Shown: positions 44,282 to 50,385 of the stretch, one piece after another
Layout: every line of letters starts with the position of its first letter
Position numbering within the stretch: position 1 is the stretch's first letter
Translations under genes and position numbers: made by a program
Source: a virus
Direction: 5' to 3' (one strand)
Length of the DNA: 50,385 bases
IMG/VR virus record: IMGVR_UViG_3300034071_001566
Coordinates: 1-50,385 of that record
Notes under the pieces: generated by a model
Told to the model about the DNA's origin: nothing
The model's input: only the letters and a program-made list of their open reading frames with translations
Database searches by the model: none

Positions 44282-44736
44282 GTCTAAAATGCCCTAATAA
44301 ATAGATATAAATAGGCATAAATATAGTTAAAAGTTGATCAAAATGGTCAACAATTGGGTAAAATCCGGGTAAAAAGGCTCATAATTAGTAACGTCTGTCT
44401 ATCCCCTATAGATAATAGAGATATAACACCTTTCAACCCGGTTTGATCTATTTATTTATCTTATTATCCTTCTTATTGTGGTCTTTTATATGGCCTTCAA
44501 TAATCGGGGGTTAAATGTGTCTGTATACACACTGATAGATGGCTTGATTACATCCTTGTAATTTACTAAGACTGATCACTGAATAGATCCAGCCTTTGAT
44601 CGAGCCTTTGATCCCCCCTAAAAAAATTTGTCCCCAGCCATCTAGTAAATAAATATACATTTGTATAAACATATATAAATAAATAATCATAATTAGTAAT
44701 TGTATTAAAAATGTTGATAAAAACATATAAATAAAC

Positions 44737-44779
44737 GCGGGTGTACAAATGCAAATACATTTGGATTTGGACCACCCGC
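44737..44779. repeat. Two-part hairpin
   Basis: Outer stem GCGGGTG/CACCCGC encloses inner stem CAAATG/CATTTG with loop CAAATA. Read on the minus strand it is followed by T-rich sequence, so it may be a back-up terminator for the leftward array. Confidence 0.5.
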
Positions 44780-44841
44780 CCTTTATATGAATAGAGATTG
44801 AGAATTTGTACTAAATTGAGATTTGTATAGGTCTCCAAATA

Positions 44842-44882
44842 GGTGTTGTTCACGGTGCGCCTAGCACAAAGTGAACAACACC
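44842..44882 (+). repeat. R1: core-hairpin element (sense on +)
   Basis: Stem GGTGTTGTTCAC/GTGAACAACACC, a perfect 12 bp, around core GGTGCGCCTAGCACAAA. Opposite orientation to R2; together they bracket cassette A. Confidence 0.85.
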
Positions 44883-44883
44883 G

Positions 44884-44914
44884 AAAAAGGGGCTACGGCG
44901 TTTGCCGTAGCCCC
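44884..44914 (-). terminator. Terminator of cassette A
   Basis: On minus: GGGGCTACGGC, short loop, GCCGTAGCCCC then TTTTT. 11-bp perfect stem. Confidence 0.85.
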
Positions 44915-44938
44915 TTATCCAGTAACGCTTATGCGAGA

Positions 44939-45247
44939 TTACTTTTTGCGCTTAGCCTTGACGGGCTTAAGCGTTACGATCATCTCGCCATCAGTAGTCC
45001 AAAATACTGATGTCTCGCGTCCGCAGGCTTCGGAAGCCTTCGCGACACGGTTGCGCCAAGTGTTTTTGTGATTGACAAACTCATCATCTGATGGGTCACC
45101 TTGCGCTGGCTCGTACTTAAAGCCTTCGCCCAACACGGTTGGGTCAATCGCCTCAATCTCGTTTTTTAATACGAGATCCAAAACGCCTTGCCTACCCCGT
45201 TTAACCAAATTGGTTAGATCGGATAGGTTAATTTTACGGTCTGACAT
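44939..45247 (-). CDS. Cassette A protein, paralogue of cassette B protein
   Basis: 102 residues, SD AGGGGA. INLSDLTNLVKRGRQGVLDL, GFKYEPAQGDPSDDE and NTWRNRVAKASEA with a strand-rich end (ETSVFWTTDGEMIVTLK) and a basic tail. Most positions are shared with the B protein. No known domain; a basic tail plus helical head could bind nucleic acid. Confidence 0.75.
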   Translation of the reverse strand: MSDRKINLSDLTNLVKRGRQGVLDLVLKNEIEAIDPTVLGEGFKYEPAQGDPSDDEFVNHKNTWRNRVAKASEACGRETSVFWTTDGEMIVTLKPVKAKRKK

Positions 45248-45267
45248 TGTATCCCCTTTTGTTTATG

Positions 45268-45328
45268 CGCCAACGGGATGTTGGCGACATCAATCACTAT
45301 ATCAAACACAATATGAGACCGTACTCAA
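45268..45328 (-). promoter_or_regulatory. Promoter A with 5'-leader hairpin
   Basis: On minus: TTGAGT (45328-45323), 21 nt, TATAGT (45301-45296), then leader stem CGCCAAC/GTTGGCG (45286-45268) before the SD. Confidence 0.65.
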
Positions 45329-45354
45329 TTCGAATAGGCCTTGCGACCCTTATG

Positions 45355-45396
45355 GCGGTTGTGCAACTTGTGCTAGGCGCACCGTTGCACCACCGC
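45355..45396 (-). repeat. R2: core-hairpin element
   Basis: 13-bp stem with one mismatch (+ strand GCGGTTGTGCAAC and GTTGCACCACCGC) around TTGTGCTAGGCGCACC. Core ends 39 nt from the promoter A box. Confidence 0.85.
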
Positions 45397-45453
45397 GTAT
45401 CTTGAGAGATTAGAAATTTGTATTAAAAATATACGACATGAGCTCTCACTCCG

Positions 45454-45494
45454 GCTGTTGTTCACGGTGCGCCTAGCACAAAGTGAACAACAGC
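45454..45494 (+). repeat. R3: core-hairpin element (sense on +)
   Basis: Stem GCTGTTGTTCAC/GTGAACAACAGC, perfect 12 bp. Differs from R1 by a compensated G-C to C-G change. Brackets cassette B with R4. Confidence 0.85.
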
Positions 45495-45501
45495 GAATAA
45501 A

Positions 45502-45525
45502 GGGCTACGGCGTATGCCGTAGCCC
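45502..45525 (-). terminator. Terminator of cassette B
   Basis: GGGCTACGGC/GCCGTAGCCC, nearly the same as terminator A but with a weak U-tract (CTTTATTC). Confidence 0.75.
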
Positions 45526-45554
45526 TTGTATCCTTGTAGTTGTGGGAGATACAA

Positions 45555-45857
45555 CTACTTGCGCTTGCCCTTGACTTTCTTAGCCTTGAGCGTCACGACC
45601 ATTTCACCCTCGGTAGTCCACAACACGCTTGTTTCGCGCTGTACCGCATCGCTTGCTTTCGCAACACGATTACGCCAAGTGTTCTTATGGTTGAGGAAGT
45701 CATCGTCACTCGGGTCGCCCTGAGCGTCAGGGTAAATGAACCCTGCCCCGACTTCGTTCGGGTCAATTGCTTCTATCTCAGCCTGTAGTTGTAGGTCAAC
45801 TACACCCTGCCTGCCACGCTTGACCAAGTTGGTCAAGTCTGCCAAGTTTACTTTCAT
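45555..45857 (-). CDS. Cassette B protein, paralogue of cassette A protein
   Basis: 100 residues from the second Met (SD GGAGAT; the upstream ATG at 45869 lies in that SD). VNLADLTNLVKRGRQGVVDL, YPDAQGDPSDDDFLNHKNTWRNRVAKAS and RETSVLWTTEGEMVVTLK parallel the A protein. Lys-rich end KAKKVKGKRK. Tandem duplication product; function unknown. Confidence 0.75.
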   Translation of the reverse strand: MKVNLADLTNLVKRGRQGVVDLQLQAEIEAIDPNEVGAGFIYPDAQGDPSDDDFLNHKNTWRNRVAKASDAVQRETSVLWTTEGEMVVTLKAKKVKGKRK

Positions 45858-45878
45858 AGGTATCTCCATTCACTATTG

Positions 45879-45939
45879 CGCCAACGGTATTGTTGGCGAC
45901 ACAATTACTATATCCAATGGCATGAGAATATGTATTCAA
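45879..45939 (-). promoter_or_regulatory. Promoter B with 5'-leader hairpin
   Basis: TTGAAT (45939-45934), 21 nt, TATAGT (45912-45907), then leader stem CGCCAAC/GTTGGCG (45898-45879). Confidence 0.7.
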
Positions 45940-45965
45940 TATATTTATATCTTTACATCCAATCA

Positions 45966-46007
45966 GCGGTTGTACAACTTGTGCTAGGCGCACCGTCGCC
46001 CCACCGC
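45966..46007 (-). repeat. R4: core-hairpin element
   Basis: + strand arms GCGGTTGTACAAC and GTCGCCCCACCGC. On the minus-strand RNA two changes become G-U pairs and two are mismatches. No second box is seen beyond it. Confidence 0.75.
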
Positions 46008-46031
46008 CAAATGGTGATCGGAGTTCAGGGC

Positions 46032-46066
46032 AAAAAAAAACCCCCCAAGCCCGAAGGCTTGAGGGG
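46032..46066 (-). terminator. Terminator of cassette C
   Basis: Minus strand: CCCCTCAAGCC, TTCG loop, GGCTTGGGGGG, then nine T. Confidence 0.9.
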
Positions 46067-46084
46067 CTCGCTGGAGAAGCGATC

Positions 46085-46393
46085 TTATGGATATATCTTA
46101 CGGGGCTTCCCAATGGTTAGCACCGCAACTACTTGCCCACTCTTTATATCGGGCAGGATATCCTGGGTAGGGGCGAAGTTTATTGACAACCGCTTACCTT
46201 GACTAGCAACGGTAATACGGGCACGAAGCTTCTGCCGTTCGTTTTGGGTATTTTTCACTGGGCGTTCAGTAACGACAACGGCAGTGGTCTGTGTAACCGC
46301 TTTAGTGCATTTTTTCAGATAAGGGTCTGCTAACCGTTTTCTTTTCATAATGCTCTCCAATGTTTCTACTGATCCAGGCTTTACTTTTTTCAT
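46085..46393 (-). CDS. Cassette C basic protein, unknown
   Basis: 102 residues, SD AAGGAGA. Basic (MKRKRLADPYLKKCTK); strands RITVASQGKRLSINFAP and KSGQVVAVLTIGK suggest a small barrel. No family recognised. Confidence 0.65.
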   Translation of the reverse strand: MKKVKPGSVETLESIMKRKRLADPYLKKCTKAVTQTTAVVVTERPVKNTQNERQKLRARITVASQGKRLSINFAPTQDILPDIKSGQVVAVLTIGKPRKIYP

Positions 46394-46403
46394 GGCTTCT
46401 CCT

Positions 46404-46470
46404 TATCAGCGGGGTAGGGTAATCGCTGATAGATATAACCTTACAATATGAGATGAGAATATGTATTCAA
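46404..46470 (-). promoter_or_regulatory. Promoter C with 5'-leader hairpin
   Basis: TTGAAT (46470-46465), 21 nt, TAAGGT (46443-46438), then leader stem TATCAGCG/CGCTGATA (46431-46404). Confidence 0.75.
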
Positions 46471-46499
46471 TATGCTTGTGAGCTGTACGCCTTTCTGCT

Positions 46500-46535
46500 G
46501 GAGTGCAACTTGTGCTAGGCGCACCGTTGCCCCAC
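46500..46535 (-). repeat. R5: core-hairpin element
   Basis: + strand arms GGAGTGCAAC and GTTGCCCCAC; core TTGTGCTAGGCGCACC. Minus-strand folding gains a G-U pair. 39 nt from promoter C. Confidence 0.75.
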
Positions 46536-46613
46536 CGCCATTCAGCGTGTGAGATGTGAATGTGTACGAAATATATAGGTACATCATGTGCTGAAAGGCT
46601 GGTGTTGGGCATG

Positions 46614-46647
46614 AAAAAACCCCCTCGCACCCGAAGGCACGAGGGGG
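46614..46647 (-). terminator. Terminator of cassette D
   Basis: CCCCCTCG/CGAGGGGG stem with a CGAA-containing loop, then six T on minus. Confidence 0.85.
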
Positions 46648-46652
46648 AAGTT

Positions 46653-46892
46653 TCATACTGCTTTCTCAAGGTAGCAGTCACCGTGTACTGTCCAGCGGAC
46701 AGATACTGGCTTGATAGCGGGGTGAGTGCGTATCTGGTGCTCAACACTCCGCTTGTATTTACGGCACTCTTCACCGTCTTGCTGGAATATCTCACGGGGT
46801 ATCTTGAGAGCCTCAATGATTACCCCGTCAGTCTTGGGTATCCGTAGGTCTGCTACGGCGTGCAGGATCTCTTCCAGTAATTGCGGGCTCAT
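46653..46892 (-). CDS. Cassette D second protein, unknown
   Basis: 79 residues, start overlapping the D1 stop (TAATG). LLEEILHAVADLRIPKTDGVII helix, then ECRKYKRSVEHQIRTHPA. Only cassettes D and I hold two genes. Confidence 0.6.
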   Translation of the reverse strand: MSPQLLEEILHAVADLRIPKTDGVIIEALKIPREIFQQDGEECRKYKRSVEHQIRTHPAIKPVSVRWTVHGDCYLEKAV

Positions 46893-47134
46893 TAGTTCTC
46901 ATCACTCTCATCATCAGCAAACATTGCATCCCAACACTCAGGGTGAGTGCCTGAGATCATCTGCTCGCGAATGTCTGCCGACAATGTTGGGAAGGCATAC
47001 TGGATTAGTTCGCCATTCTCAACCCGCTGTTTACCAGCGAAGTATTCTGAGGCGGACATTGTAACCTTCCCCATCTGTCCGCAATGATGGCAGGTCTCGG
47101 TAAGCACCGTTACCATATCTACGCTTATTGACAT
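46892..47134 (-). CDS. Cassette D first protein, CxxC zinc-type
   Basis: 80 residues from the ATG after SD GGAGA. TETCHHCGQMGKVTM, then GELIQYAFPTLSADIREQMISG and PECWDAMF. The order CxxCG, IQ-A-P-LS, RE-x-ISG, CWD recurs in short actinobacterial and actinophage proteins; zinc binding is likely. Role unknown. Confidence 0.7.
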   Translation of the reverse strand: MSISVDMVTVLTETCHHCGQMGKVTMSASEYFAGKQRVENGELIQYAFPTLSADIREQMISGTHPECWDAMFADDESDEN

Positions 47135-47143
47135 TGTATCTCC

Positions 47144-47214
47144 ATTCTGTCGTGTCAAGCGGGAATGCTTTGACAGAATGAACCTTACCGAATGAGATGA
47201 GAATATGTATTCAA
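47144..47214 (-). promoter_or_regulatory. Promoter D with 5'-leader hairpin
   Basis: TTGAAT (47214-47209), 21 nt, TAAGGT (47187-47182), then leader stem ATTCTGTC/GACAGAAT (47179-47144). Confidence 0.75.
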
Positions 47215-47240
47215 TATGTTTGTGAGCTGTAAGCCTTGTC

Positions 47241-47282
47241 GCTGGAGTGCAACTTGTGCTAGGCGCACTGTCGCCCACCAGC
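47241..47282 (-). repeat. R6: core-hairpin element
   Basis: + strand arms GCTGGAGTGCAAC and GTCGCCCACCAGC; core variant TTGTGCTAGGCGCACT. Confidence 0.8.
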
Positions 47283-47348
47283 AGAATGTGAAGAGAATTT
47301 TTATATGCATTAAATATTGAGAAATGCTCAGCACAGTCCGGTCGGGGT

Positions 47349-47375
47349 TCTCCCCCCGCCCGAAGGCGAGGGGAG
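47349..47375 (-). terminator. GC-rich hairpin after cassette E (no U-tract)
   Basis: Minus: CTCCCCTCGCC, TTCG, GGCGGGGGGAG, followed by AACCCC rather than T. It may work as a stability hairpin rather than a terminator. Confidence 0.6.
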
Positions 47376-47390
47376 AGTTGGAAGGAACGA

Positions 47391-47645
47391 TCACTCTACG
47401 AAGTAATCCAATTCCTCAATTGAGCCTTGAACATCTGTGAACAACTGCTCAATGTCGCTCAACTTGTCCTGCAAGTCACCGATGAACTCTTTACGCAAGG
47501 CAACCTTCATGTCCAACAAGATGCTGAGCATCTGGGCATCCATCTCGCTTTGGCTAATGAAGTTGTTTTTCAGTTGCTTGGCAACTTTAACAACTGAATC
47601 GTAGGCGACTGTAAGTGCCCCTGGAAGTTCTGTTCTGTATGTCAT
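47391..47645 (-). CDS. Cassette E helical protein, unknown
   Basis: 84 residues, SD AAGGAGA. All-helical with heptads (MDAQMLSILLDMKVALRKEF, LQDKLSDIEQLFTDV). Likely oligomeric. Confidence 0.65.
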   Translation of the reverse strand: MTYRTELPGALTVAYDSVVKVAKQLKNNFISQSEMDAQMLSILLDMKVALRKEFIGDLQDKLSDIEQLFTDVQGSIEELDYFVE

Positions 47646-47656
47646 TGCTATCTCCT

Positions 47657-47724
47657 TGTCAAGGGGGAATGGGTTGTCCTTGACATCTCTTACATTACCC
47701 GATGAGGTGAGAATGTGTATTCAA
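47657..47724 (-). promoter_or_regulatory. Promoter E with 5'-leader hairpin
   Basis: TTGAAT (47724-47719), 21 nt, TAATGT (47697-47692), then perfect leader stem TGTCAAGG/CCTTGACA (47685-47657). Confidence 0.75.
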
Positions 47725-47753
47725 TGTGAGAACATGCCATACGCCTTCCTGCT

Positions 47754-47789
47754 GGAGTGCAACTTGTGCTAAGCGCACCGTTGCCCACC
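47754..47789 (-). repeat. R7: core-hairpin element
   Basis: Arms GGAGTGCAAC and GTTGCCCACC (+ strand), core variant TTGTGCTAAGCGCACC. Flanked outward by TTCAGCA ... TGCTGAA and CACCA ... TGGTG pairs. Confidence 0.75.
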
Positions 47790-47864
47790 ACCGTTCAGCA
47801 TGTGAGGTGTGAATGTGTATGAAATATATGGGCATAGTATGTGCTGAAACGCTGGTGTTGGGAC

Positions 47865-47900
47865 AAAAAAAATCCCCCCAAGCCTTTCGGCTTGAGGGGA
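47865..47900 (-). terminator. Terminator of cassette F
   Basis: TCCCCTCAAGCC, GAAA-type loop, GGCTTGGGGGGA, then eight T on minus. Confidence 0.9.
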
Positions 47901-47913
47901 CTGGGAGTGGAAG

Positions 47914-48099
47914 TTACTTGCCTTGCTCGGCAATCTTGCGCTCGTAGGACTTGAGCATGACTGCCAGTCCGTTCATTGCGCTTGCGTTGCCTTGCTGAGT
48001 AGCACGGTTCAGCGCTGTTGCGAGAACCATGAATTGTTCCTCAAGCGTCATTTTCGTCACGGGGTGACTAACGCGCAAGGGTTGTTCTGTTCGTTTCAT
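47914..48099 (-). CDS. Cassette F small helical protein
   Basis: 61 residues, SD AGGGAGA. LEEQFMVLATALNRATQQGNASAMNGLAVMLKSYERKI is a helical hairpin with an Ala-rich turn. Unknown. Confidence 0.6.
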   Translation of the reverse strand: MKRTEQPLRVSHPVTKMTLEEQFMVLATALNRATQQGNASAMNGLAVMLKSYERKIAEQGK

Positions 48100-48109
48100 T
48101 GTTTCTCCC

Positions 48110-48177
48110 TGCCAGCGGGGTTAGGAGTATCGCTGACAGAATGAACATTACAGGATGAGAGAGGAATATGTATTCAA
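48110..48177 (-). promoter_or_regulatory. Promoter F with 5'-leader hairpin
   Basis: TTGAAT (48177-48172), 21 nt, TAATGT (48150-48145), then leader stem TGTCAGCG/CGCTGGCA (48138-48110). Confidence 0.75.
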
Positions 48178-48206
48178 TGTAGGGATACCCTGTAAGCCTT
48201 TCCGCT

Positions 48207-48242
48207 GGAGTGCAACTTGTGCTAAGCGCACCGTTGCCCACC
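48207..48242 (-). repeat. R8: core-hairpin element
   Basis: Same arms and core as R7; flanking outer pair here is CCATTCAT/ATGAATGG instead of TTCAGCA/TGCTGAA. Confidence 0.75.
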
Positions 48243-48314
48243 ATTCATCTTGTGTAGCAAGAATGTATTAAACAAGGAACATTTGGCTGCACAGTATGAA
48301 TGGAGTTCGGGCAC

Positions 48315-48347
48315 AAAAAAATCCCCCAAGCCCGAAGGCTTGGGGGA
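48315..48347 (-). terminator. Terminator of cassette G
   Basis: TCCCCCAAGCC, TTCG, GGCTTGGGGGA, then seven T on minus. Confidence 0.9.
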
Positions 48348-48359
48348 CTGGATTGCTTG

Positions 48360-48698
48360 TCAATCGTTGTATATCTTGTAGCGGTCTTGCTCTTTCTCAA
48401 GACTATGAAGCCTCTTGAGAACATCTTGCCTTACGGCTGTGAACAATTCCAACTCTTTATCAGCACGGAGTGCCTGACAGCGCAGGCGTGACCACACCCG
48501 TGCGTTCATTACATCCTTGCTGTGAAAGATACCGATTACATCGCCAACCTTATCCATGAAGTTGTCATACTCATGGTGAAAGACGACATAACTAGGCTCT
48601 GAGTCATGCTGTCTAGGAACAGTATGTATCTCAAAGTAATTCCCATCGGTACAGAGGCTCTGTACCGTACCGCTACCATTTACTTCCCAATGTTGCAT
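48360..48698 (-). CDS. Cassette G protein, unknown
   Basis: 112 residues, SD AGAGAGG. Beta-rich first half (WEVNGSGTVQSLC, YVVFHHEYDNFMDKVGDVIG) and a charged helical end (LKRLHSLEKEQDRYK). No family recognised. Confidence 0.65.
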   Translation of the reverse strand: MQHWEVNGSGTVQSLCTDGNYFEIHTVPRQHDSEPSYVVFHHEYDNFMDKVGDVIGIFHSKDVMNARVWSRLRCQALRADKELELFTAVRQDVLKRLHSLEKEQDRYKIYND

Positions 48699-48709
48699 TG
48701 GTTCCTCTC

Positions 48710-48771
48710 TGTCTTGGCGGGTTGCCTTGACAACAACTACCTTACAGAATGAGAAGGAAATGTGTATTCAA
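48710..48771 (-). promoter_or_regulatory. Promoter G with 5'-leader hairpin
   Basis: TTGAAT (48771-48766), 21 nt, TAAGGT (48744-48739), then leader hairpin TGTCAAGGC/GCCAAGACA with mismatches (48732-48710). Confidence 0.7.
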
Positions 48772-48800
48772 TATGATAATACGTTGTAAGCCTTATCATT

Positions 48801-48836
48801 GGAGTGCAACTTGTGCTAAGCGCACCGTTGCCCACC
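48801..48836 (-). repeat. R9: core-hairpin element
   Basis: Same arms and core as R7. On minus, GTTGCCC..CACCA (48911-48897) can alternatively pair with TGGTGGGCAAC of the element. Confidence 0.75.
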
Positions 48837-48913
48837 ACCGTTCAGCATGTGAGGTGTGAATGTGTATGAAACATACGGGTACATCATGTGCTGAAAGATT
48901 GGTGTTGGGGCAA

Positions 48914-48950
48914 CAAAAAAACCCCAAGCCTCGGGGGTGAGGCTTGGGGT
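48914..48950 (-). terminator. Terminator of cassette H
   Basis: ACCCCAAGCCTC/GAGGCTTGGGGT, 12-bp stem, T-run on minus. Confidence 0.9.
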
Positions 48951-48964
48951 CTATTTGCTGGGGA

Positions 48965-49216
48965 TTATTGCTTGGAGCCGAATATATCCTCAAAGGTGAG
49001 GGGTTCAGCGCCCGCCCTCATCATCTCCGCTTGGCTCTGTAAGCAGAGTTCGGCAACCAAATCCCTTTGCTTGTACAGGTCAAGGATTTGGTAGTGCTGA
49101 TCTTCGAGGCGTGTCTTGTACTCTTGCTTCGCCTCTACTCGCCCGATTGCCCAGCCGATCACGACACACGCGGTGCCGAACACGAATAGGCAAAGAGCCA
49201 TTGTGTATTCGTTCAT
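48965..49216 (-). CDS. Cassette H membrane-anchored coiled-coil protein
   Basis: 83 residues from ATG 49216 (SD GGGAGA). MALCLFVFGTACVVIGWAIG is an N-terminal membrane helix, followed by RVEAKQEYKTRLEDQHYQIL coiled coil. Rz-like layout, so a spanin i-type role is possible, but there is no partner lipoprotein. Confidence 0.65.
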   Translation of the reverse strand: MNEYTMALCLFVFGTACVVIGWAIGRVEAKQEYKTRLEDQHYQILDLYKQRDLVAELCLQSQAEMMRAGAEPLTFEDIFGSKQ

Positions 49217-49227
49217 GTCTCCCTCTC

Positions 49228-49290
49228 TGTCAGGGCGGGATCGCCTTGACACAATGAACATTATCAAATGAGAGCCAAATGTGTATTCAA
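49228..49290 (-). promoter_or_regulatory. Promoter H with 5'-leader hairpin
   Basis: TTGAAT (49290-49285), 21 nt, TAATGT (49263-49258), then leader stem TGTCAAGGCG/CGCCCTGACA (49251-49228). Confidence 0.75.
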
Positions 49291-49319
49291 TATGGAATCA
49301 TGCTGCAAGCCTTATTGTT

Positions 49320-49355
49320 GGAGTGCAACTTGTGCTAGGCGCACCGTCGCCCACC
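49320..49355 (-). repeat. R10: core-hairpin element
   Basis: Arms GGAGTGCAAC and GTCGCCCACC, core TTGTGCTAGGCGCACC. Outer pair GCACACAGCA/TGCTGTGTGC replaces the TTCAGCA/TGCTGAA of R7. Confidence 0.75.
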
Positions 49356-49433
49356 AAGCACACAGCATGTGTCGGCTCATGGATATTAAAGATGTGAGAC
49401 CTATGTGTGCTGTGTGCATGGTGTTCGGGGCAA

Positions 49434-49464
49434 AGAAAAAGGGGAGGAGCCGAAGCCCCTCCCC
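49434..49464 (-). terminator. Terminator of cassette I
   Basis: Minus: AGGGGAGGGGC, TTCG, GCTCCTCCCC, then TTTTT. Confidence 0.9.
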
Positions 49465-49471
49465 TCTCTGC

Positions 49472-49561
49472 TTACTTGCGTAGGTATGTCTTGACCATGG
49501 TGACTGCGCCCCAGATCACCATGATCATCATTGCCGTAAGCGGGTCAATGTTGATATCCAT
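49472..49561 (-). CDS. 29-aa membrane peptide
   Basis: SD GGAGATG 5 nt before ATG. MDINIDPLTAMMIMVIWGAV then KTYLRK: one membrane helix with a basic end. Second gene of cassette I. Confidence 0.5.
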   Translation of the reverse strand: MDINIDPLTAMMIMVIWGAVTMVKTYLRK

Positions 49562-49607
49562 TATTCATCTCCTTTCATGTGTTGTAGGAATAAAGCCCCG
49601 AAGGGTC

Positions 49608-49874
49608 TTACATCAAGTCCTTCGCCATCTGACTGATGACCTCTGCACGAGCCTTGAGATCAACCAACAGGATCGTTGCCTCGTTGATCGCAGTGGTCAA
49701 GTCCTCCTTGATCGACTCAAGGCGGATAACATCACCAATCTGATCAAGGCCAATTGCAGTGGACATGCTGGTATCGTGTTGCTGTGCAACTTCGGCAACC
49801 TGTGATAGCCAACCGAAGCAGTGAGACACTCGCGCCCCTGCTAAACCCTCGGCCTTCATGCCTTGTGTATTCAT
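49608..49874 (-). CDS. Cassette I helical protein, unknown
   Basis: 88 residues from the ATG after SD AAGGAGAG. LSQVAEVAQQHDTSMSTAIG and IKEDLTTAINEATILLVDLK are amphipathic helices. Four-helix-type, no family recognised. Confidence 0.65.
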   Translation of the reverse strand: MNTQGMKAEGLAGARVSHCFGWLSQVAEVAQQHDTSMSTAIGLDQIGDVIRLESIKEDLTTAINEATILLVDLKARAEVISQMAKDLM

Positions 49875-49884
49875 TGTTCTCTCC

Positions 49885-49953
49885 TTGCCAGAGATGACTG
49901 GGCATCTCGTTGGCAAATACAATGTATCAAATAAGTCGCAAATATGCATTCAA
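49885..49953 (-). promoter_or_regulatory. Promoter I with 5'-leader hairpin
   Basis: TTGAAT (49953-49948), 21 nt, TACATT (49926-49921), then leader TTGCCA..AGATG/CATCT..TGGCAA (49916-49885). Confidence 0.7.
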
Positions 49954-49979
49954 TATAAATACATCCCCTCACCCAACAA

Positions 49980-50022
49980 ACGGTTGTACAACTCTGTGCT
50001 AAGCGCACCGTTGTACGACCGT
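49980..50022 (-). repeat. R11: core-hairpin element
   Basis: Stem ACGGTTGTACAAC/GTTGTACGACCGT, 13 bp with one G-T pair; core TCTGTGCTAAGCGCACC. The A-T pairs here replace the G-C pairs of R2. Confidence 0.8.
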
Positions 50023-50170
50023 CAACCTTCTAGGGATTGACCCCCTCCGACAGAGGAAATTAACAACAACAAAAAATGCAAAGTAACACTCATAAAATGT
50101 GTACTAAAATTTTGGATAGGAAGGTTCAGGGCGGGTATAGGAGTATAAAAGTTTGGGGGAGAATAAAAAA

Positions 50171-50254
50171 GACCGCTACACATGCACATGCCCCTGGGGT
50201 TGAGCCCAGAGGCATCTGCACCTATAACGGTCCTAAGGTTAGCTTTCGCTGCCT
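50171..50254 (+). ncRNA. Folded segment with 23S helix-69-like match
   Basis: GACCG (50171-50175) can pair with CGGTC (50228-50232); inside, ATGCC-C-CTGGG (50188-50198) pairs with CCCAG-A-GGCAT (50205-50215), and AGG-tt-AGC/GCT-g-CCT forms a third hairpin (50236-50254). Bases 50222-50239 read CTATAACGGTCCTAAGGT, identical to the universally conserved 23S rRNA segment around helix 69 (the I-CeuI site). No ORF. RNA status is an inference. Confidence 0.4.
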
Positions 50255-50385
50255 CTATCAGTATACATAGATAGATATTTGCGGGATAGTAATAATGATT
50301 GGGTCTATTTACGGGTGTTCCGGTAGAAGCCGGATCCTTTGAGTTCAATTACGGGAGGGGAATAGATTTGTTTGCGGGGATTCCC
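50255..50385. other. Noncoding end of window
   Basis: No gene seen. A hairpin TCCGG-TAGAAG-CCGGA (50319-50334) and two TTACGGG phrases are present. The sequence probably continues into the next genome region. Confidence 0.4.

Follow-up and report, generated by a model that had tools for sequence, protein, structure and literature searches.

What does a hairpin do when it is repeated, at a fixed distance, in front of nine sets of small genes? The question is raised by the IMG/VR virus record IMGVR_UViG_3300034071_001566, whose whole length of 50,385 bp we call the window. From 50.03 to 44.9 kb, the window holds nine units in tandem on the minus strand, and each repeats the same order: a hairpin element, R; the TTGAAT box, M (TTGAATACAYATT); a TAnnnT motif in the place of a -10 box; a 5' leader hairpin; a Shine-Dalgarno sequence; and one or two small genes. 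We argue, with little better than even confidence, that the array is a regulon under a phage-specific promoter class, formed by M as an activator box and by R as a position-locked hairpin, which would switch the nine small-gene units together.

Anatomy of the array

The core of R, CGGTGCGCYTAGCACA, has 11 matches in the window with at most three mismatches, where 0.19 are expected: the nine on the minus strand include one with a single mismatch, and the other two are on the plus strand. From the start of the core, TTGAAT is 55 nt away in all nine units but unit 1, where it is 56 nt away, units being counted from right to left. In each of the nine, the first T of M is followed 27 nt later by the start of TAnnnT, which leaves a gap of 21 nt after TTGAAT. 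With at most two mismatches, the pair formed by M and the -10 box occurs, within the window, in the array only; ten Markov-1 random sequences gave 0, 0, 0, 0, 0, 0, 2, 0, 0 and 0 matches. The leader hairpins, read straight from the sequence like the Shine-Dalgarno sequences, start 7-8 nt past the -10 box, where the start of the transcript is expected. A scan for sigma-70 promoters (TTGACA, a spacer of 16-18 nt, TATAAT) recovers none of the nine unit promoters, so that the word promoter is used here on the grounds of position and conservation.

A first-pass annotation, made from the letters of the window alone, had described the nine-unit array with its fixed order of parts and the TTGAAT-N21-TAnnnT pair, and the counts above agree with it on both. 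It was also right that composition changes at the array: the guanine-plus-cytosine (GC) content is about 0.48 there, against 0.33 in the adjoining AT-rich block. The GC-rich terminators that it saw are present in most units, but not every one has a T-run: five hairpins of the minus strand come with a T-run in the terminator scan, and one at 49.46 kb qualifies too, by eye; the hairpin past the gene that ends at 47391 is without a T-run, and the terminators of genes A and B, in units 8 and 9, are weaker. Its list of parts is accurate but incomplete, since it omits two inverted copies of R, a weak R-like hairpin and a second M-like box. The Rfam 15 covariance models find nothing near gathering score in 44300-50385.

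The same array in eight phages

The window phage is a freshwater-type virus of bacteria. Its host is likely an actinobacterium, because the phage matches of its DnaE polymerase are best with Streptomyces phages of about 130 kb (37% identity), alongside a replication and virion gene set that includes DnaB helicase, RecA/UvsX, terminase, portal and capsid protein. A second IMG/VR contig of this phage, 3300044731_001587 (38.7 kb), shares 18.5 kb with the window at 100% identity and runs about 20 kb beyond its right end.

The nuclease gene directly beyond the right end of the window serves as an anchor for relatives and yields 80 IMG/VR loci, among which the array stands at the equivalent place in L034, L035, L037 and L032/L033. 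A search with the A-type proteins, the family of gene A, adds L118 (which is the same as L034), L120/L121, L126 and L127. The total is 68 units in eight distinct phages, the window phage and seven relatives from IMG/VR. The order of R and promoter around homologous genes, which the annotation had named as a test of its proposal, is kept in all eight. Across IMG/VR, the exact R pattern matches, besides the second contig of the window phage, eight stretches, all by chance and without a hairpin; the exact pattern of M and -10 gives the contigs already known and chance matches, nothing else. A blastn comparison with phages gives a single match of 59 bp, to phage DSL-LC01, which lacks R. In the contigs searched, one of them 108.8 kb long, the matches of the R model are confined to the arrays.

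A covarying hairpin with a preferred strand

Covariation was evaluated on 36 copies of R from four phages. The cells of the R stem are paired in 92.9% of cases, and two-sided compensatory changes number 39, against 11 in shuffles. The covariation score is 0.299, versus 0.133 (standard deviation 0.013) for shuffled alignments and at most 0.135 for slid ones; arm pairing reaches 359 of 432, while 2000 shuffles average 321 and never exceed 339. The loop is mostly C(GNNTA)G, and C(TTYA)G in L033 and L127. Around GNNTA, the inner stem is swapped with compensation from phage to phage: TGC/GCA, AGC/GCT, GGC/GCC, ATC/GAT and TAT/ATA.

The hairpin also has a strand. In the 36 aligned stems, one mismatch column left out, the gene-sense strand carries about 30 G.T pairs and a single A.C. 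In 62 of the 68 units, the fold of this strand is more stable than that of the complement, with RNA and DNA energies alike, and the preference holds for the majority of units in every one of the eight phages. Neither a duplex operator nor a symmetric cruciform predicts such an asymmetry.

The cores of R agree inside a genome and differ across genomes (TAGCACA in the window phage, TAGCTCA in L034, TTCAGC in L033 and L127), and the stems vary freely between phages. Uniformity within each genome would fit one shared reader per phage; gene conversion would equally yield it.

A hairpin locked to its putative promoter

The distance from the loop of R to M is 49-53 nt (about 51 nt, standard deviation 0.8) in all 68 units of the eight phages; for contrast, the standard deviation is 8 from M to the ATG and 32 from the T-run to M. 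In the last 26 nt before M, the identity between L126 and the other phages is just 24-29%, where about 25% is chance. The gap from M to the -10 box is 20-21 nt.

In most units, an M-like box recurs on the far side of R, at about 97-100 nt from M in the upstream direction, this time with no -10 box; because of this recurrence, M by itself is probably a binding site. Beyond the T-run of the terminator lies a stretch whose pairing with the 5' arm of its own R (mean -14.1) is stronger than with the arms of other units (-11.8, standard deviation 0.39). Most units of L126 have neither the second box nor the competing arm, which places both outside the minimal design: terminator, R, M, -10, leader hairpin and gene. 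We rejected a reading of R as the 5' leader of transcripts started at the upstream M box, that box being without a -10 and absent in most L126 units.

How the hairpin might act

In the reading that we favour, the putative promoter would consist of TAnnnT as its -10 box and of M, at about -40 to -28, standing in for the -35 box; transcription is predicted to start at the base of the leader hairpin, about M+40. M is most likely where a factor encoded or recruited by the phage binds, since it recurs beyond R, with no -10 box, in most units. R would be an upstream element locked in position, with its apical loop some 92 bp upstream of the predicted start, and recognised through its conserved loop as a hairpin on the gene-sense, non-template strand. 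Since cores match within a genome and differ between genomes, a single shared factor may read all the copies of R in one phage. The hairpin terminators of most units would insulate them, and genes would be gained, lost and moved as M-gene-terminator-R blocks, exchanged by recombination in the repeated chassis. The fixed spacing between R and M suggests a role at the level of DNA rather than RNA, and the strand preference suggests that a single strand is folded. Both would be accounted for by a hairpin of the non-template strand, or by a nucleoprotein imposing that fold.

Several points weigh against this reading. A strand-specific fold is also expected of transcribed RNA, the fixed spacing could partly stem from descent, and supercoiling or a protein is required for one strand of a DNA duplex to form a hairpin. 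The counts on R overstate the number of independent events, the units being paralogues of shared ancestry. Finally, a search for sigma factors in six contigs, all possibly fragments, found none, and the analysis brought up no candidate regulator.

The alternative that survives best is that R works as RNA. In read-through transcripts, it would fold before the next promoter and stop, pause or license the polymerase, in the manner of an insulator, an attenuator or a nut/put-like site; a polymerase that R brings to a halt would stop shortly before M. The fold is rich in G.U, specific to one strand and oriented with transcription, and the stretch past the T-run, which pairs preferentially with the 5' arm of its own R, recalls a two-state RNA switch. 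However, R begins about 10 nt past a strong terminator T-run in L126, where it would rarely be transcribed, most units of that phage have no competing upstream arm, and an RNA element does not need a promoter spacing that is constant to about 1 nt. We regard this alternative as possible, though on the whole unlikely.

A plain double-stranded operator, that is, an inverted repeat made uniform by duplication and gene conversion, whose arms pair only as a consequence of dyad symmetry, is distinctly improbable. Inverted repeats are often bound by regulators, the units of one genome are clearly related copies, and the inverted copies of R have perfect stems; yet it is the loop that is conserved, the arms vary with compensation, the inner stems are swapped, and an excess of G.T over A.C is unexpected for a duplex site.

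We give very little credit to R as a folded single-strand recombination site, integron attC-like or HUH-type, that inserts or shuffles cassettes: the single R per cassette, its one orientation, its single-strand fold and the gain, loss and movement of cassettes among relatives speak for it, but neither a tyrosine recombinase (PF00589, for which the controls matched) nor an IS200/IS605-type (REP/RAYT) Y1 transposase (PF01797) was found in six contigs, possibly fragments, the attC core boxes RYYYAAC and GTTRRRY are not seen in arms that read, by eye on the alignment, GGGCAAC...GTTGCAC or variants, R is locked to the promoter, and homologous recombination between chassis copies suffices for the junctions.

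The regulon with a position-locked hairpin has a bolder form, in which a loop-specific hairpin of the non-template DNA strand, about 92 bp upstream and flanked by activator boxes, would be read by its structure as a phage-private code common to all the interchangeable units, which it would switch as a set, and would form a new class of promoter control in bacteria and phages. This we put forward tentatively, as a rather unlikely proposal. If it is true that R is read as a folded strand, then it is a control element absent from all the families compared in the next section.

Comparison with known systems

The nearest described elements are the extended start-associated sequences (ESAS) of Cluster K mycobacteriophages, imperfect inverted repeats of 15-17 bp that overlap a SigA-like promoter with a spacer of 17-18 bp; they sit by a 13 bp start-associated sequence (SAS) at the start codon, and an RNA hairpin is little supported according to the authors (PMC3203893, PMC11373665). 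Both ESAS and R are repeated inverted-repeat elements placed before a subset of small non-structural genes in an actinophage (a likely one in the case of R), with putative promoters associated, and the ESAS consensus varies among subclusters as R does between phages. Unlike ESAS, R is a separate covarying hairpin about 30 bp upstream of M, and the gap from M to -10 is 20-21 nt. The SAS, GGGATAGGAGCCC, has no match in the window with at most two mismatches, and no SigA-like promoter with a 17-18 bp spacer lies inside the repeat, M and the -10 box being both outside R. The R of the array thus departs from ESAS in the SAS and in promoter geometry, and the annotation had called this analogy a loose one.

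The middle promoters of phage T4 join a -10 box to a box for the activator MotA near -30 to -40, in place of the -35 box, as M would do in the array. They have no R-like hairpin upstream, and the sequence of M differs from that of the MotA box; no relative of MotA, for which no search was made, and no candidate activator of the box came to light. Phage N4 has a virion RNA polymerase that reads promoters in which a DNA hairpin with a conserved loop, on one strand, lies right at the start. The N4 hairpin is on the template strand at the start, whereas the loop of R is about 92 bp upstream and its hairpin is stable on the non-template strand. A search for a T7-like polymerase (PF00940) gave no match, and the control genomes gave none either.

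Like the array, integron cassette arrays combine small unrelated genes, a conserved folded element per cassette and turnover of content. The array differs from them by a promoter in each cassette and by the conservation of the apex of its folded element, where attC conserves the ends; no integrase was found in the six contigs searched. The host-takeover module of phage SPO1, which has 26 genes (PMC6873191), resembles the array as a cluster of small genes without an assigned function.

The R/M array is neither ESAS, nor an integron site, nor an N4 promoter, and the literature searched, mostly without subscription papers, holds no match to its repeated chassis or to a similar phage array. It has the look of a shared switch for which no match among described types was found, and in which the action of the hairpin is putative. 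Repeated control elements before small phage genes, such as ESAS and stoperators, have long been known, mostly without a mechanism. R offers a measurable grammar, consisting of a loop, a covarying stem, a strand preference and a fixed distance to the promoter, and this grammar is testable. The array also marks exchangeable small proteins that have almost no database relatives and are good candidates for acting on the host.

The units and their genes

The order of genes is largely kept across phages: F1, F2, F3, F4, F5, F6ab, F7 and the A-types. F5 is absent in L034, and in L033 it has moved behind F7 instead of standing ahead of F6. Between F3 and F4, L037 carries an additional cassette, whose junction, compared with L035, lies between R and M. 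With control elements conserved in eight phages and units gained, lost and once moved, the idea that interchangeable genes sit in a standard chassis, which the annotation had proposed, gains support from these comparisons.

In the following, features are on the minus strand unless stated otherwise, the bit scores of R hairpins are those of covariance model R1, and the intervals from M to the -10 box come from the scan for the pair. Unit 1 has its R at 49977..50027 (54.0 bits) and its M, TTGAATGCATATT, to -10 TACATT at 49921..49953. Two genes follow: F1, an open reading frame of 88 amino acids with a Shine-Dalgarno sequence (49608..49874; homologues in L035 and L037), and a gene for a hydrophobic peptide of 29 amino acids (49472..49561; homologue in L034). 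Unit 2, with R at 49314..49363 (63.5 bits) and M to -10 TAATGT at 49258..49290, carries F2 (83 amino acids, 48965..49216), which has a homologue in L034. In unit 3, R (48795..48844, 62.4 bits) and M to -10 TAAGGT (48739..48771) precede F3, of 112 amino acids (48360..48698), with homologues in three phages by BLAST clustering and a further one in L033 by eye. F4 (61 amino acids, 47914..48099) and F5 (84 amino acids, 47391..47645), both assigned by BLAST clustering across phages, follow R at 48201..48250 (61.1 bits) and M to -10 TAATGT at 48145..48177 in unit 4, and R at 47748..47797 (64.6 bits) and M to -10 TAATGT at 47692..47724 in unit 5.

Unit 6 (R at 47238..47287, 62.6 bits; M to -10 TAAGGT at 47182..47214) has two genes, F6a, of 80 amino acids (46892..47134), and a gene of 79 amino acids (46653..46892) that also rests on BLAST clustering. 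Among the array proteins, Pfam and PHROGs give a family for F6a alone, phrog_20898. It has a CxxC motif, a relative at 52.6% identity in the otherwise unrelated lake phage DSL-LC01, and weaker ones in Gordonia phages.

Unit 7 (R at 46494..46543, 61.9 bits; M to -10 TAAGGT at 46438..46470) encodes F7, of 102 amino acids (46085..46393). In unit 8, R (45963..46012, 67.1 bits) and M to -10 TATAGT (45907..45939) precede gene A, of 100 amino acids (45555..45857, alignment A4), and in unit 9, R (45352..45401, 66.2 bits) and a diverged M, TTGAGTACGGTCT, to -10 TATAGT (45296..45328) precede gene B, of 102 amino acids (44939..45247), a paralogue of A at 74% identity. The annotation held that only A and B are paralogues; F7, however, falls in the same single-linkage BLAST cluster, so that the genes, though mostly unrelated, are less so than it stated.

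The A-type proteins have an RGR motif and a basic C-terminus, occur in two or three copies per phage, and several are followed by an inverted copy of R, R'. In the window, two such copies with perfect stems lie on the plus strand, behind the terminator of A (45449..45497, 45.8 bits) and behind that of B (44837..44885, 46.1 bits). For the A-type protein there is no Pfam family, no sequence relative in PDB and none in bacterial genomes, and its AlphaFold model (predicted local distance difference test, pLDDT, 80.7) has no fold match below E 0.3. We looked at it as an Lsr2-like RGR DNA binder, a proposal that these searches leave unsupported. The A-type proteins are candidates for a putative factor that reads R or M.

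At the head of the array, a further M-like box, TTTAGTACACATT, lies at 50096-50108 (minus strand), 142-155 nt upstream of the first M, and ATTTTATGAGTGTTACTTT is conserved after it in several relatives; it is possibly an extra putative promoter. At the inner end, a degenerate tenth R-like hairpin (44734..44784, 15.3 bits, E 0.2) has counterparts at the equivalent place in L033, L034, L037 and L126. The stretch 44400-44790, past the last cassette and the degenerate R, is AT-rich and has counterparts, equally placed and with GTAATCAA-type motifs, in L118, L126 and L033; it is possibly a non-coding RNA or an origin.

Neighbouring elements

The test on relatives has another side. In L041-L047, L050-L052, L054 and L055, the nuclease is 82-98% identical, yet the equivalent place holds a different small-gene array. 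This other chassis has 12-36 GTAAnnTTAC palindromes per locus, where R/M phages have 0-1, and hairpins of 30-32 nt with different loops in the four loci examined. Model R1 has no match in these loci, where the distance from hairpin to promoter does not look fixed by eye. Across this group, which includes the arrays of L054 (3000-9000, minus strand) and L055 (1500-7300, minus strand), some palindromes are inside genes and hairpins carry TGTAAnnTTA in their stems, an arrangement that is stoperator-like.

Just to the right of the array, at 50222-50239 (minus strand), ACCTTAGGACCGTTATAG is the reverse complement of a near-universal stretch of 23S rRNA, in the region of the I-CeuI site. It lies inside an RNA-like gene at about 50256-50163 (minus strand) that a -10-like TATACT precedes and a terminator follows, and that belongs to no Rfam family. 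Its core is kept beside the array in relatives of all three chassis types; in the L054/L045 group, it extends to 31 nt with 96.8% identity to E. coli 23S rRNA, antisense. The gene looks like that of a putative antisense RNA by which the phage would target 23S rRNA, or else like a mimic of rRNA carried by the opposite strand.

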